Origin: Desulfuromonas sp.
GTDB lineage: Bacteria; Desulfobacterota; Desulfuromonadia; Desulfuromonadales; Desulfuromonadaceae
Length of the DNA: 35,869 nt
Assembly (NCBI GenBank): GCA_021162745.1
Contig: JAGGYC010000151.1
Location: forward strand, 1-35,869
Reading direction: 5' to 3'
Shown here: piece by piece, positions 21,596-25,925 of the stretch
Position numbering within the stretch: the stretch's first letter is position 1
Layout of the letters: every line of letters starts with the position of its first letter
Translations under genes and position numbers: made by a program
Notes under the pieces: model-generated
The model's input: only the letters and a program-made list of their open reading frames with translations
Database searches by the model: none
Told to the model about the DNA's origin: nothing

Positions 21596-22150
21596 ATGGG
21601 GGTGGCTTTGCAGGAAACCGTAGGGGAAACAGTCCTTTTGGATAGTGACGCAATCAAGCGCGCTATGACGCGGATTGCTCATGAAATTCTGGAAAAAAAC
21701 AGGGGTTGTGAAGGTCTTGTTCTGATTGGAATTCGTACTGGTGGTGACCATTTAGCGCACCTGCTTCGCCAACGTATTTATGACATTGAAGGGATCGAGG
21801 TTCCTTTAGGGGCTGTGGATGTCACCATGTATCGTGATGATGTCGCCAGTGGTGTTACCCGTCCGATGGGAAAGACAGATATTCCGTTTGCCCTGGATGA
21901 TTGTCATGTCATTTTGGTTGACGAAGTGCTCTATACCGGTCGTACTATACGTGCCGCCATGGATGCCCTGATGGATATTGGTCGGCCCAGCAGTATTCAA
22001 CTAGCGGTGCTGGTTGATCGCGGTCATCGGGAACTGCCGATCCGTGCCGATTATGTCGGTCGCAATGTGCCCTCGGCGCGGGAAGAAAAGATTGAAGTTA
22101 CTTTTGATGAGGCATTATTGCCGTTAGAGGTTCGTTTGCTCAAGCCTTGA
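21596..22150 (+). CDS. pyrR: Pyrimidine operon regulator PyrR / uracil phosphoribosyltransferase
   Basis: A 184-aa protein of the type I phosphoribosyltransferase fold. PyrR binds the pyr leader RNA when UMP is high and, in many members, also makes UMP from uracil and PRPP. The PRPP-binding signature is VILVDEVLYTGRTIRAAM (about 104-121). Other PyrR stretches are GIRTGGDHLA near 45-54 and YRDDVASGVTRPMGKTDIPF. The ATG at 21596 has no good ribosome site. A GTG at 21602 is an alternative start, and coupling to the leader frame is possible. The gene opens pyrR-pyrB-pyrC-carA-carB. A palindromic repeat starts right after its stop codon. Confidence 0.93.
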   Translation: MGVALQETVGETVLLDSDAIKRAMTRIAHEILEKNRGCEGLVLIGIRTGGDHLAHLLRQRIYDIEGIEVPLGAVDVTMYRDDVASGVTRPMGKTDIPFALDDCHVILVDEVLYTGRTIRAAMDALMDIGRPSSIQLAVLVDRGHRELPIRADYVGRNVPSAREEKIEVTFDEALLPLEVRLLKP

Positions 22151-22276
22151 ATGGCGTCGCAAAAAGTCCGTTCTGCTGCGTTACAGCGGGTTTTCAAAAC
22201 CTCGACATACAACATCGTATGCCTTCGTCCTTGAAAAACCACTAAGCCTTGCTGAACGAAGTTTTTGCTTAGCCAT
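22151..22276. repeat. Dispersed palindromic intergenic repeat, copy 2
   Basis: A 126-bp copy of the element at 2655-2777, starting on the base after the pyrR stop. Both ends are the same as in copy 1 (ATGGCGTCGCAAAAAGTCCG at the left and TTTTTGCTTAGCCAT at the right). The central CTCGACATAC and GTATGCCTTCG segments are shared, with differences concentrated in the loops. It lies inside the pyr operon, 56 bp before pyrB. Confidence 0.85.
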
Positions 22277-22332
22277 TATCGTTTATAAAGTTCATTTTTG
22301 CGAGATTGAGTAGAGATAAAGGGGGACGTAGT

Positions 22333-23280
22333 ATGGCGTTTTTGCACAAGCACATTATCGGAACAAAACAGCTGTCCAAAGAGGATATTGAACTGATTCT
22401 CGAAACGGCTGAAAGTTTCAAGGAAGTCAACCAGCGTGAGATTAAAAAAGTTCCTACGTTGCGTGGCAAAACCATCATCAATCTGTTTTATGAAAACAGT
22501 ACCCGCACCCGGACCTCTTTTGAGTTGGCCGGCAAACGGATGTCGGCGGATACCATCAATATCTCGGCCTCCGGCTCTTCGGTAACCAAAGGGGAGACAT
22601 TGGAAGATACGGCCAAGAATATTGAAGCCATGGATGCCGATGTGATCATCATGCGCCACTCCTGTTCCGGGGCTCCGGAGTACTTGGCCAAGCGTTTGAC
22701 CAAGTGTTCGGTAGTCAATGCCGGTGACGGTTTCCATGAACATCCCAGTCAGGCGCTGCTTGACCTGATGACCATCAAGGAGCACAAGGGGAAAATCGAG
22801 GGATTGACTGTTGCCATCATCGGCGACATTGCCCGTAGCCGTGTTGCCCGTTCCAACCTCTACGCCCTGAAGACCATGGGCGCTACGGTTCGACTGGCTG
22901 GACCCGCAACCATGTTGCCGACCGGTCTTGAAGAGATGGGGGCCGAAGTCTATACCGACATCAATAAGGCGATCAAGGATGCCGACGTTGTTATGATGTT
23001 GCGGATCCAGATGGAGCGGGAAGGGGGCAACACCCTGATGCCGACTCTGCGAGAATATGCACAGTTCTTTGCTCTGAATACCGAGAACATCAAGTTGGCC
23101 AAGCCGGATGCGATCGTCATGCACCCTGGTCCCCTGAACCGTGGTGTTGAGATCTCCTCATACGTCGCTGACGGTGAGCAGAATGTCATTCTCGAACAGG
23201 TTGAAAACGGCGTTGCCGTCCGTATGGCCTTGCTGTACTTGCTGGCCGGCGGCAGTGACGAAGAGAAGAACGATTCGTAA
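22333..23280 (+). CDS. pyrB: Aspartate carbamoyltransferase catalytic subunit
   Basis: A 315-aa enzyme that joins carbamoyl phosphate and aspartate, the committed pyrimidine step. The carbamoyl-phosphate site S56-T-R-T-R60 lies in [13 protein letters not shown], the [12 protein letters not shown] motif is near 136-147, and the aspartate-site residues are in [11 protein letters not shown]. Length is normal for the catalytic chain, and no pyrI regulatory subunit is present. I chose the ATG at 22333 ([15 protein letters not shown]) with GGGGG about 7 nt upstream over a start at 22306 that adds nine unlikely residues. A 282-codon antisense frame is a shadow. Confidence 0.95.
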
Positions 23281-23284
23281 CTTG

Positions 23285-23414
23285 TTCAGCTGGATGGGAT
23301 CGTGACACCCTTATCAATGGACGCAAAATCCCATCCGTGGGGCTTGTCGTCGCTGTCCATGGCGACAAACATCCTTGCTATGGCTGTCACAATCCCATCA
23401 GGCGAAATGCTGAA
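23285..23414 (+). ncRNA. Structured element between pyrB and pyrC with alternative pairings
   Basis: GATGGGATCGTGACA (23293-23307) pairs with TGTCACAATCCCATC (23385-23399), with a single C-A mismatch over 15 positions. Flanking TTCAGC (23285-23290) and GCTGAA (23409-23414) extend the stem. A second ATCCCATC at 23328-23335 can capture the same left arm, so two exclusive folds exist. TTGTCG (23344-23349) and CGACAA (23363-23368) form an inner hairpin. There is no T-tract and no convincing reading frame. It may be a regulatory RNA or a small MITE-like repeat. Confidence 0.5.
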
Positions 23415-23453
23415 AAGTTACAAACGATAAAATTTCTCGCAAAGAGGTGCAAA

Positions 23454-24737
23454 ATGAAGATGTTGATTAAAAACGGCAGAGTGATTGATCCCTCCCAGGA
23501 GCTCGATTCCTGTCTGGATATATTGATCGAAGATGGTTTGATTGTTGAGTTGGCGGAAGATATTGATGCCGACGGTATTGATGAAGTGATTGATGCTGAC
23601 GGACTCGTGGTCACTCCGGGGCTGATTGATATCCATGTCCACTTGCGCGAACCCGGCCATGAATATAAAGAGGATATCATTACCGGAACGCGGGCGGCAG
23701 CTGCCGGTGGTTTTACTTCGGTAGCCTGCATGCCGAACACCAATCCGGTGAATGACAATAAGGCGTTGACGGCCTACATGATCAACAAAGGTGAGCAGGA
23801 AGGTTCTGCCAATGTTTTTCCGATCTGCACCATCACTAAGGGGCAGGAAGGGAAATCACTGGTTGAGATGGGCGATCTCAAACTGGCTGGTTGTGTCGGT
23901 TTCTCCGACGACGGGCTCAATGTCGAGTGCGGTGAAGTGTTGCGCCGGGCCATGGAGTACGCTTCGGGCTTTGACATGCCGATCATCGCTCACGCTGAAG
24001 ATGAGGCGATCAAGGCCGGTGGGGTGATGAACGAGGGCCGTGTTGCGACCGAGCTGGGCTTGACGGGAAACCCCTGGGTTGCCGAAGCGTCTACCGTTGC
24101 CCGCGATCTGATGCTGGCTGAATTTACCGGTGCCCGCTTGCACGTTTGTCACATCTCAACCCGGCGTACCGTTGAGCTGATTCGTGAAGCCAAGGCGCGC
24201 GGTATCAAAGTGACCTGTGAGGTGACCCCTCATCACTTCACCCTGACCGAAGAAGCGGTTCGCGGTTATGATGTCAATGCCAAGATGGGGCCGCCATTAC
24301 GGACGGCGGATGATGTTCAAGCGATGAAAGAGGGCCTGGCTGACGGTACCATTGATGCCATCGCCACCGATCATGCGCCGCATCACATTGATGACAAAAA
24401 TATTGAGTTCAATGTTGCTGCCAACGGCTTGATTGGCCTCGAAACAGCGCTGTCGCTGACCTTGAATCTGGTTGCCGAGGAGAGCATCTCCCTATCTCAG
24501 GCCATTAACTGCCTGAGTACCGCCGCTGCCAACACGCTTAGGATTCCACGCGGGACGCTGCAAAAAGGGGTGCCGGCCGATGTGACAGTTATCGATCCTG
24601 AATATAAATGGGCCGTAAATGCCCAGCAGCTGCAATCCAAAGCGCACAACACTCCCTTTGATGGCTGGGAGATGACAGGTGCAGCGATGCTGACCATCCG
24701 CAATGGTCAGGTCACTTTTGAACGTAAAGATAACTAA
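23454..24737 (+). CDS. pyrC: Dihydroorotase (class I, PyrC)
   Basis: A 427-aa zinc amidohydrolase that closes carbamoyl aspartate to dihydroorotate. The metal motif HVHLREPG has His61 and His63, and the Asp metal ligand is in ATDHAPH (Asp306). The DIHVHLREPGHEYKEDI segment and the C-terminal PADVTVIDPEYKW place it in the long class I branch that often teams with PyrB. The start at 23454 follows AAGAGG by 6 nt. The upstream in-frame extension to 23337 runs through the structured element and is rejected. It is 57 bp before carA. Confidence 0.94.
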   Translation: MKMLIKNGRVIDPSQELDSCLDILIEDGLIVELAEDIDADGIDEVIDADGLVVTPGLIDIHVHLREPGHEYKEDIITGTRAAAAGGFTSVACMPNTNPVNDNKALTAYMINKGEQEGSANVFPICTITKGQEGKSLVEMGDLKLAGCVGFSDDGLNVECGEVLRRAMEYASGFDMPIIAHAEDEAIKAGGVMNEGRVATELGLTGNPWVAEASTVARDLMLAEFTGARLHVCHISTRRTVELIREAKARGIKVTCEVTPHHFTLTEEAVRGYDVNAKMGPPLRTADDVQAMKEGLADGTIDAIATDHAPHHIDDKNIEFNVAANGLIGLETALSLTLNLVAEESISLSQAINCLSTAAANTLRIPRGTLQKGVPADVTVIDPEYKWAVNAQQLQSKAHNTPFDGWEMTGAAMLTIRNGQVTFERKDN

Positions 24738-24794
24738 CAATTGATTAGATAGCTAAGTGCCATCATTAACACAATACAAGGAGCACACTAGAGC

Positions 24795-25925
24795 ATGAAA
24801 GCAATTCTGGCTCTTGCAGACGGTCGAATTTTTCACGGCCAGAGCATCGGTGCCGTCGGGGAAACCTGCGGTGAGGTCGTTTTTAATACCAGCCTTAGCG
24901 GCTATCAGGAGATCTTGACCGATCCCTCCTACCGTGGTGAGATTGTTACCATGACCTACCCGCTGATCGGCAATTCCGGCATCAACAGTGAAGATGTTGA
25001 ATCTTCCAAGCCACATCTGTCCGGCTTTGTCGTTAAAGAATGTTGTAAATTCCCCAGTAACTGGCGCTCGGAGATGACTCTTGATGCCTACCTGAAGGAA
25101 AATAACATCGTCGGCATTGAAGGTGTCGATACCCGTGCGCTGGTTAAGCATATCCGTGATCATGGTGCTCAAACCGGGATCATCTCATCGCTTGATCTTG
25201 ATCCTGCCAGTCTGGTGGAAAAAGCGCGCCAAGCTCCTGAGCTGATTGGCCGCGACTTGGTCAAAGGGGTATCAACAACAGAAAATTACACCTGGACCGA
25301 AGGGTTGTGGGATCTGGATGAAGGTTATCGGCAGGCCGATGCGGCCCCAAAGTTCAATGTCGTGGCCTATGACTTTGGTATTAAACGCAATATTTTGCGT
25401 AATCTGATCAGTGGCGGCTGCGCGGTAACCGTGGTTCCTGCCGATACCCCGGCACAGCAGGTGCTGGAGATGAATCCTGACGGCGTGTTCCTGAGTAATG
25501 GTCCCGGCGACCCGGAGCCGATCAGCTATGCACAGGACAATATCCGCCAGTTGCTCGGCAAGGTACCGCTGTTTGGTATCTGTCTTGGTCATCAACTGCT
25601 ATCCATTGCCCTCGGCGCCAAGACCTATAAGCTCAAGTTCGGTCATCGCGGCGGCAATCAACCGGTGCAGCAAAAAGCAAACGGCAAGGTTGAAATCACC
25701 TCGCAAAACCATGGTTTTGCCGTCGATGCTTCAAGCCTTGGCGATGATATCAGCGTGACCCATATCAATCTCAATGACAACACGGTTGAGGGGATTTGCC
25801 ACAATGCACTCCCGGCATTCTCGGTTCAATATCATCCTGAAGCCTCTCCCGGTCCTCACGATGCGCACTATCTGTTTGACCGCTTTATCGAGATAATGGA
25901 CAACTTCAAGCGAAACGTGAAATAA
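24795..25925 (+). CDS. carA: Carbamoyl-phosphate synthase, glutamine-hydrolysing small subunit
   Basis: A 376-aa subunit that releases ammonia from glutamine and channels it to CarB. The N-terminal domain contains [24 protein letters not shown]. The class I glutamine amidotransferase domain begins near 190 and has the nucleophile Cys263 in [10 protein letters not shown] and the catalytic His-x-Glu in [11 protein letters not shown] near the C terminus. Length is normal. AAGGAG lies 11 nt before the ATG, a rather wide gap, so initiation may be modest. It is 10 bp before carB, so the two subunits are made together. Confidence 0.96.

Follow-up and report, generated by a model that had tools for sequence, protein, structure and literature searches.

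ERIC, NEMIS, and similar sequences are short palindromic intergenic repeats that are cotranscribed inside operons. Another family of small structured RNAs, TwoAYGGAY (Rfam RF01731), has been linked to the global RNA regulator CsrA in a proposal reportedly made by Gardner and Eldai. In the accessible part of the source, CsrA binding by TwoAYGGAY is put forward as a proposal and not as a demonstration (PMC4333381). Rfam types the family as cis-regulatory, while its discoverers, in the available part of their description, judged cis-regulation improbable (PMC2864571). High-affinity CsrA sites are described, in the text accessible to us, as hairpins with an ANGGAN hexaloop in which extra loop bases can reduce affinity; a CsrA dimer bridges two such sites separated by 10-63 nt, with spacings above 18 nt working best, and its residues L4 and R44 are critical (PMC7652899). 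For Geobacter, the available sections of two papers report that no CsrA-regulating sRNAs were found experimentally (PMC5568370) and that such sRNAs amount to three predictions only (PMC11934962). Among transposable elements, IS66 is characterized, in the part of the source at hand, by ends starting with GTAAGCG and by 8-bp repeats (PMC11946415).

In the window (the whole 35,869-nucleotide stretch of Desulfuromonas sp. DNA that was analysed), we identified a 145-bp element at 23277..23421 on the minus strand, bounded by inverted ends and predicted to adopt a TwoAYGGAY-like fold. R1, a covariance model built from 20 copies in the same genome, scored it at 119.9 bits on the minus strand and 27.9 bits on the plus strand. 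The 5′ terminal inverted repeat of the RNA strand occupies 23409..23421 (GTAACTTTTCAGC on the minus strand), and the 3′ terminal inverted repeat occupies 23277..23290 (GTAACTTGTTCAGC on the plus strand). Inside them, the outer stem is formed by a 5′ arm at 23375..23399 and a 3′ arm at 23293..23317 (both minus strand, the latter containing GATGGGAT), an inverted repeat whose pairs covary across copies. Two further minus-strand hairpins were assigned from sequence, fold, and family loop statistics: hairpin 1 at 23349..23366 (GTCGCC-ATGGAC-AGCGAC), whose loop is widened to 8 nt by a C-A mismatch in the predicted fold of the window copy, and hairpin 2 at 23329..23342 (CCCC-ACGGAT-GGGA), with an ANGGAN loop. 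The minus-strand RNA thus has two GGA-loop hairpins ~20 nt apart, which resemble paired CsrA sites. On balance, we favour the interpretation that the element is a MITE whose RNA probably binds CsrA, and that at this site it lies antisense to the pyr operon and is probably passive.

This region had been described in the earlier note as a switch-like fold at 23285-23414, in which one arm could pair with either of two complements. The letters behind that description are present, with the arm GATGGGAT at 23293 and two ATCCCATC complements at 23328 and 23392, and the region is strongly folded, reaching −49.4 kcal/mol on the plus strand (z −3.4) and beating 200/200 shuffles. The fold is therefore real, but its span was drawn too short, since the element covers 23277-23421, and the better fold is on the minus strand: 23270-23430 gave a z of −7.1 there, and the same 145 nt reached −64.2 kcal/mol on the minus strand versus −56.3 kcal/mol on the plus strand. 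The proposed pair of exclusive folds did not hold, as the near pairing, at −45.6 kcal/mol, falls 3.8 kcal/mol short of the far one (−49.4), and its pairs have a mean probability of 0.001 versus 0.988. Nor is that pairing common to the family, for the match between outer arm and interior is 9 nt long in the window copy and at most 7 nt in 36 other full copies.

The repeat nature of the element is near certain. A second small repeat family, which the earlier note had mentioned as an alternative, was indeed what the genome contained: R1 matched 40 places at E <= 0.1, and for 38 of these E was at most 4e-10, while a DNA self-search of the genome returned 8 matches to the stretch, itself included. 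The genome is a 2.9-Mb draft in 163 contigs, and the R1 search scored 150 of its 1107 candidates, so that the counts are a lower bound (at least 38 copies). Comparison of copies placed the family ends at GTAACTATTCAGC ... GCTGAATAGTTAC; the 13-mer GCTGAATAGTTAC had 59 genome matches at no more than one mismatch versus 5 for a reversed control, often in facing pairs ~130-150 bp apart. The features expected of a MITE were found, namely terminal inverted repeats, insufficient length to encode a transposase, numerous dispersed copies, and a target duplication of fixed length (8 bp), which was perfect and in register in 9 of the 38 copies. At the window copy, a possible left remnant of the duplication (23269..23276, AACGATTC) and a possible right one (23423..23430, AACGATAA, one base off the repeat end) share 6 of 8 positions with this one-base shift, a resemblance that is weak alone; the window copy is probably a somewhat decayed MITE copy. 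Among 98 copies, no preference of orientation relative to the neighbouring genes was seen (AA 32, SS 28), with orientations called by a simple ORF caller that was wrong for the pyr copy. Many own-genome copies abut the 3′ ends of genes, and as the end sequence GTAAC contains a stop codon, insertion at gene tails may be tolerated.

The search for a larger partner with the same ends (0.4-6 kb, target duplication of at least 7/8) found no autonomous element among the loci searched, and a wider search of 12 own-genome loci of this draft, allowing up to 4 mismatches, returned short elements only. One full copy had no match in the plasmid and phage collections. Like IS66-type MITEs, the element has ends that begin with GTAA and an 8-bp target duplication, but its ends (GTAACTATTCAGC) depart from GTAAGCG after GTAA, and the IS66 transposase domain (DDE_Tnp_IS66) had no match in the own draft genome. 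A derivation from the IS66 family was rejected on these two grounds, the lack of a transposase match and the different ends. In the open-access literature, we found nothing on IS66-family MITEs with 8-bp duplications, and among the papers carrying 11-mers of the ends, none was recognised by title as dealing with such a repeat. A 165-bp element of the own genome (L204:1472-1636) shares the ends of the family and has a 7/8 target duplication but a different palindromic interior, and L017:1501-1540 is a 40-bp remnant with scarcely more than both ends.

We then examined the outer stem, which in ten genomes varies in sequence and keeps its pairing. In the 20 own-genome copies, 90.3% of the cells at 48 pairs were paired and 18 pairs showed double changes, with a covariation score of 0.258 versus 0.134 for shuffled and at most 0.090 for slid controls. 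Stem mismatches, in a strand-neutral count over 143 copies in seven sets, comprised 284 G-U and 66 A-C, to be read with the caveats that the copies are related, that their cells are not independent, and that the rows from other genomes are the first-listed best matches to a model preferring G-U over A-C. The count took rows of at least 115 nt (37/39, 18/21, 13/13, 15/16, 12/12, 13/13, and 35/35 rows of the sets); set A3 has 39 distinct rows, two of which are cut pieces of one copy and were retained in the end and loop counts. G-U exceeded A-C in all seven sets, least in G039 (26 vs 17), and the own-genome stem gave 61 vs 10 (37 of the 38 good copies). By contrast, the inverted ends showed no such excess (15 G-U vs 24 A-C in five sets). 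An excess in the stem and not in the ends indicates that selection acted on the stem as minus-strand RNA, and we regard RNA-level selection on the stem as well supported.

When the mismatches were divided by orientation, with the pyr copy set antisense by hand, the excess appeared both where a copy lies antisense to its two neighbours (32 G-U vs 7 A-C) and where it lies sense to them (15 vs 2). Since antisense copies show it too, the excess reflects the past of the family and not the window copy, and it probably arose in source copies and not where the copies now lie. For the same reason, the data do not support the idea that local transcription produced the excess by mutation.

The loops were likewise compared with CsrA sites. 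Of 149 rows, 139 carry GGA in each of the two loops. The second loop is nearly always A-N-G-G-A-N, with a pyrimidine as its last base and position 2 free; the first loop is ANGGAN in 96/149 rows (those with six-base loops) and has five bases, lacking the A, in 51/149. When three closing Watson-Crick pairs were demanded for both GGA-loop hairpins, 101/143 copies qualified. The GGA-GGA spacing was 18-21 nt in 133/149 rows, as counted from the fitting pair closest to 19 nt, with 15 rows having no fitting pair. The GGA loops and their spacing, read from sequence, make CsrA binding by the minus-strand RNA plausible.

The own genome encodes one CsrA match, with L4 and R44, and csrA was found in 31/58 genomes of the group. 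Among the 17 element-bearing genomes, csrA was found in 12 and not in 5, so that it does not occur wherever the RNA is kept. Four genomes without a csrA match (G003, G005, G006, and G012) have 15-26 element matches each (both strands counted); both GGA are kept in 30/35 of their rows, and loop decay was not seen in genomes without a csrA match. Genome incompleteness alone would produce the four absences with a chance of ~0.0002, and in these genomes either csrA was recently lost or the loops serve something else. In high-quality genomes, csrA was present in 11/13 with the element versus 16/33 without it (one-sided Fisher p 0.025), and over all genomes the association had p 0.08, relatedness being ignored in both tests. 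Our search of the open-access literature found nothing on CsrA in Desulfuromonas; in the parts of the papers accessible, CsrA and miniature inverted-repeat were mentioned together only in separate contexts, and one paper found on CsrA with GGA-motif repeat elements concerns two Alcanivorax sRNAs.

With CsrB, RsmY, and RsmZ, the element shares GGA in hairpin loops and paired sites at bridging distance. It differs from them in having only two putative sites per copy and in being spread as a mobile repeat; moreover, a sequence scan of the window copy found neither a minus-strand promoter-like site nor a terminator-like site, with one promoter-like site on the plus strand versus 0.5 expected. ERIC and NEMIS are distinguished from it by its branched fold, two conserved GGA loops, and RNA-strand asymmetry.

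The likeness to TwoAYGGAY lies in the long variable outer stem, the branch with two hairpins, and the AYGGAY-type loops. On the window copy, the whole RF01731 model (1-168) was aligned at 26.5 bits, below its cut-off of 43, and no other RNA family matched within 23200-23500 at E values up to 5. The own genome had six RF01731 matches at E <= 10 (best 30.9 bits), a limit at which 1/14 control genomes matched, and in other genomes of the group 7/20 loci scored 31.4-37.6 bits. The element departs from TwoAYGGAY by scoring under this cut-off and by being multicopy with inverted ends and target duplications. At E <= 0.1, the Rfam model matched in 3 of 22 genomes chosen for carrying the ends: a Lachnospiraceae genome has a single match (112.3 bits), a Methylococcaceae genome has six (best 48.4), and a gammaproteobacterial genome has 19 (best 41.7). 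R1 also finds the elements of the gammaproteobacterial genome with 19 matches (up to 67.7 bits), and neither the Lachnospiraceae nor the Methylococcaceae matches; the Rfam model finds none at E <= 0.1 in G076, although R1 detects elements there. None of 11 stretches read from RF01731-matching genomes had ends like GTAACTATTCAGC; the TwoAYGGAY-like architecture, judged from these stretches, is therefore not tied to such ends and may predate them. In one gammaproteobacterial genome (G068; L274, L275, L279, and L281), TwoAYGGAY-like elements often form inverted pairs, ~260-330 bp from start to start.

When we examined the distribution of the element, R1 matches were found in 17/58 genomes, the own genome included, with a pattern that is patchy even within the genus; 55 candidates were scored per genome, and matches ranged from none to 50-55, which are lower bounds. 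Across the phylum, R1 matched in 6/395 genomes, all of the same order, under stricter filters and with scoring limited to 8 candidates in each genome. By themselves, the ends are much more widespread: a pattern scan of named genomes returned at least 119 stretches, which among the matches listed came from gamma- and deltaproteobacteria, Lachnospiraceae, a spirochaete, Bacteroidetes, and others. Of 125 elements with these ends, 123 had both flanks, and 72 of the 123 had perfect 8-bp duplications, with 19 more at 7/8. R1, run on 100 of the at least 119 end-bearing loci, gave 8 matches with E below 1e-18 and a ninth of only 0.055; most elements bounded by the same ends have other interiors. Loci L075-L193 are 126-156 bp elements with ends GTAACTATTCAGC from several phyla, mostly with 8-bp target duplications and mostly with unrelated interiors.

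If the favoured interpretation is correct, the minus-strand RNA would bind a CsrA dimer via its two loops, transcribed copies would jointly constitute scattered CsrA decoys, and copies lying sense in an mRNA would act as CsrA handles. Several findings weigh against it: the element-bearing genomes with no csrA match, the five-base first loops, the widened first loop of the window copy, the indifferent orientation, and the lack of an autonomous partner among the loci searched. The same inverted ends, target duplications, and indifferent orientation would also be expected of a purely selfish MITE, whose palindrome and loops serve its own transposition or survival (as transposase recognition or as a DNA or RNA hairpin) and whose GGA loops are read by a factor other than CsrA. 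The element-rich genomes lacking a csrA match and the unrelated interiors in most other elements with the same ends point in this direction. Such an explanation fits poorly with an RNA-strand asymmetry that is seen in the stem and absent from the ends, with second loops and six-base first loops that fit ANGGAN with position 2 free, and with the same architecture being bounded by different ends in one Lachnospiraceae copy and in two gammaproteobacterial genomes; we regard it as doubtful, if still credible. For the MITE with CsrA-type sites, a broader proposal can be offered tentatively, and with a little less doubt: TwoAYGGAY-type CsrA sites may be cargo of transposon-like ends, so that a MITE lineage would spread dozens of two-site CsrA decoys or handles, repeatedly connecting new operons to a global regulator or else titrating that regulator, and an Rfam family now typed as cis-regulatory would consist in part of mobile elements. 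If paired CsrA-type sites are indeed carried by a mobile multicopy element, this would show how transposition can add targets to a global RNA regulator or remove them, and one direct binding test would bear both on CsrA-regulating sRNAs in Geobacter and on the TwoAYGGAY proposal.

At the pyr operon, the gene order is pyrB, element, pyrC, carA, and carB, as assigned from Pfam domains. pyrB (aspartate carbamoyltransferase, 22333..23280, plus strand) ends inside the repeat, its TAA stop (23278-23280) coming from the end of the element, and pyrC (dihydroorotase, 23454..24737, plus strand) starts 32 nt past it. pyrB was matched in 54 relatives, and the loci of 29 of them were searched; R1 found no match in these 29 loci, and in the 16 gaps that were read down to pyrC, pyrC follows pyrB without such an element in every case. 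The insertion is thus, as far as these sequences indicate, specific to this lineage among the relatives examined, and antisense to the operon. A switch that senses a ligand or pyrimidines through two exclusive folds, suggested by the two exact complements of one arm, is extremely improbable here, given the pairing probability of 0.001 for the alternative, a complement peculiar to the window copy, at least 38 copies in the genome, and absence from the 29 pyrB loci. Many copies across the genome are what the earlier note had itself named as grounds for refutation, and its switch for pyrC-carAB is unsupported. In addition, no Rfam family reached its cut-off in the window, and no riboswitch was present among the weak RNA-family matches of 22000-25000. 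A pyrimidine switch at pyrB-pyrC was rejected on the pairing probability and the absence from relatives' loci, and no switch annotation is warranted at the operon. A cis effect, compatible with the other readings, would have the hairpin serve as a processing or stability site that shifts pyrC-carAB output relative to pyrB; the element does lie between two genes of the same direction, and its plus strand is strongly folded too (−56.3 kcal/mol). We consider such an effect unlikely, in view of the lack of a terminator-like site, the position of the likely pyrC ribosome site outside the element, and the lack of conservation at pyrB-pyrC. As for the MITE with CsrA-type sites, its copy here is antisense, so that pyr mRNA holds only the complement, whose loops lack GGA, and probably escapes regulation by this copy; a role of the element in pyr regulation is unlikely.

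The C-terminus of pyrB in relatives is GGSDEE in 4/16 cases, and the others have similar or different short tails. Two relatives' loci without the element, L253 and L249, have a single end-like stretch in the pyrB-pyrC gap (CTGAACAGTTAC and GTTATTCAGC, respectively), and these are perhaps traces of lost insertions. A second dispersed repeat lies just upstream of pyrB, at 22150-22276 of the window (and at 2655-2777); the copy at 22150-22276 resembles 32 other places in the own genome with 76-89% identity, and one of these lies in the window.
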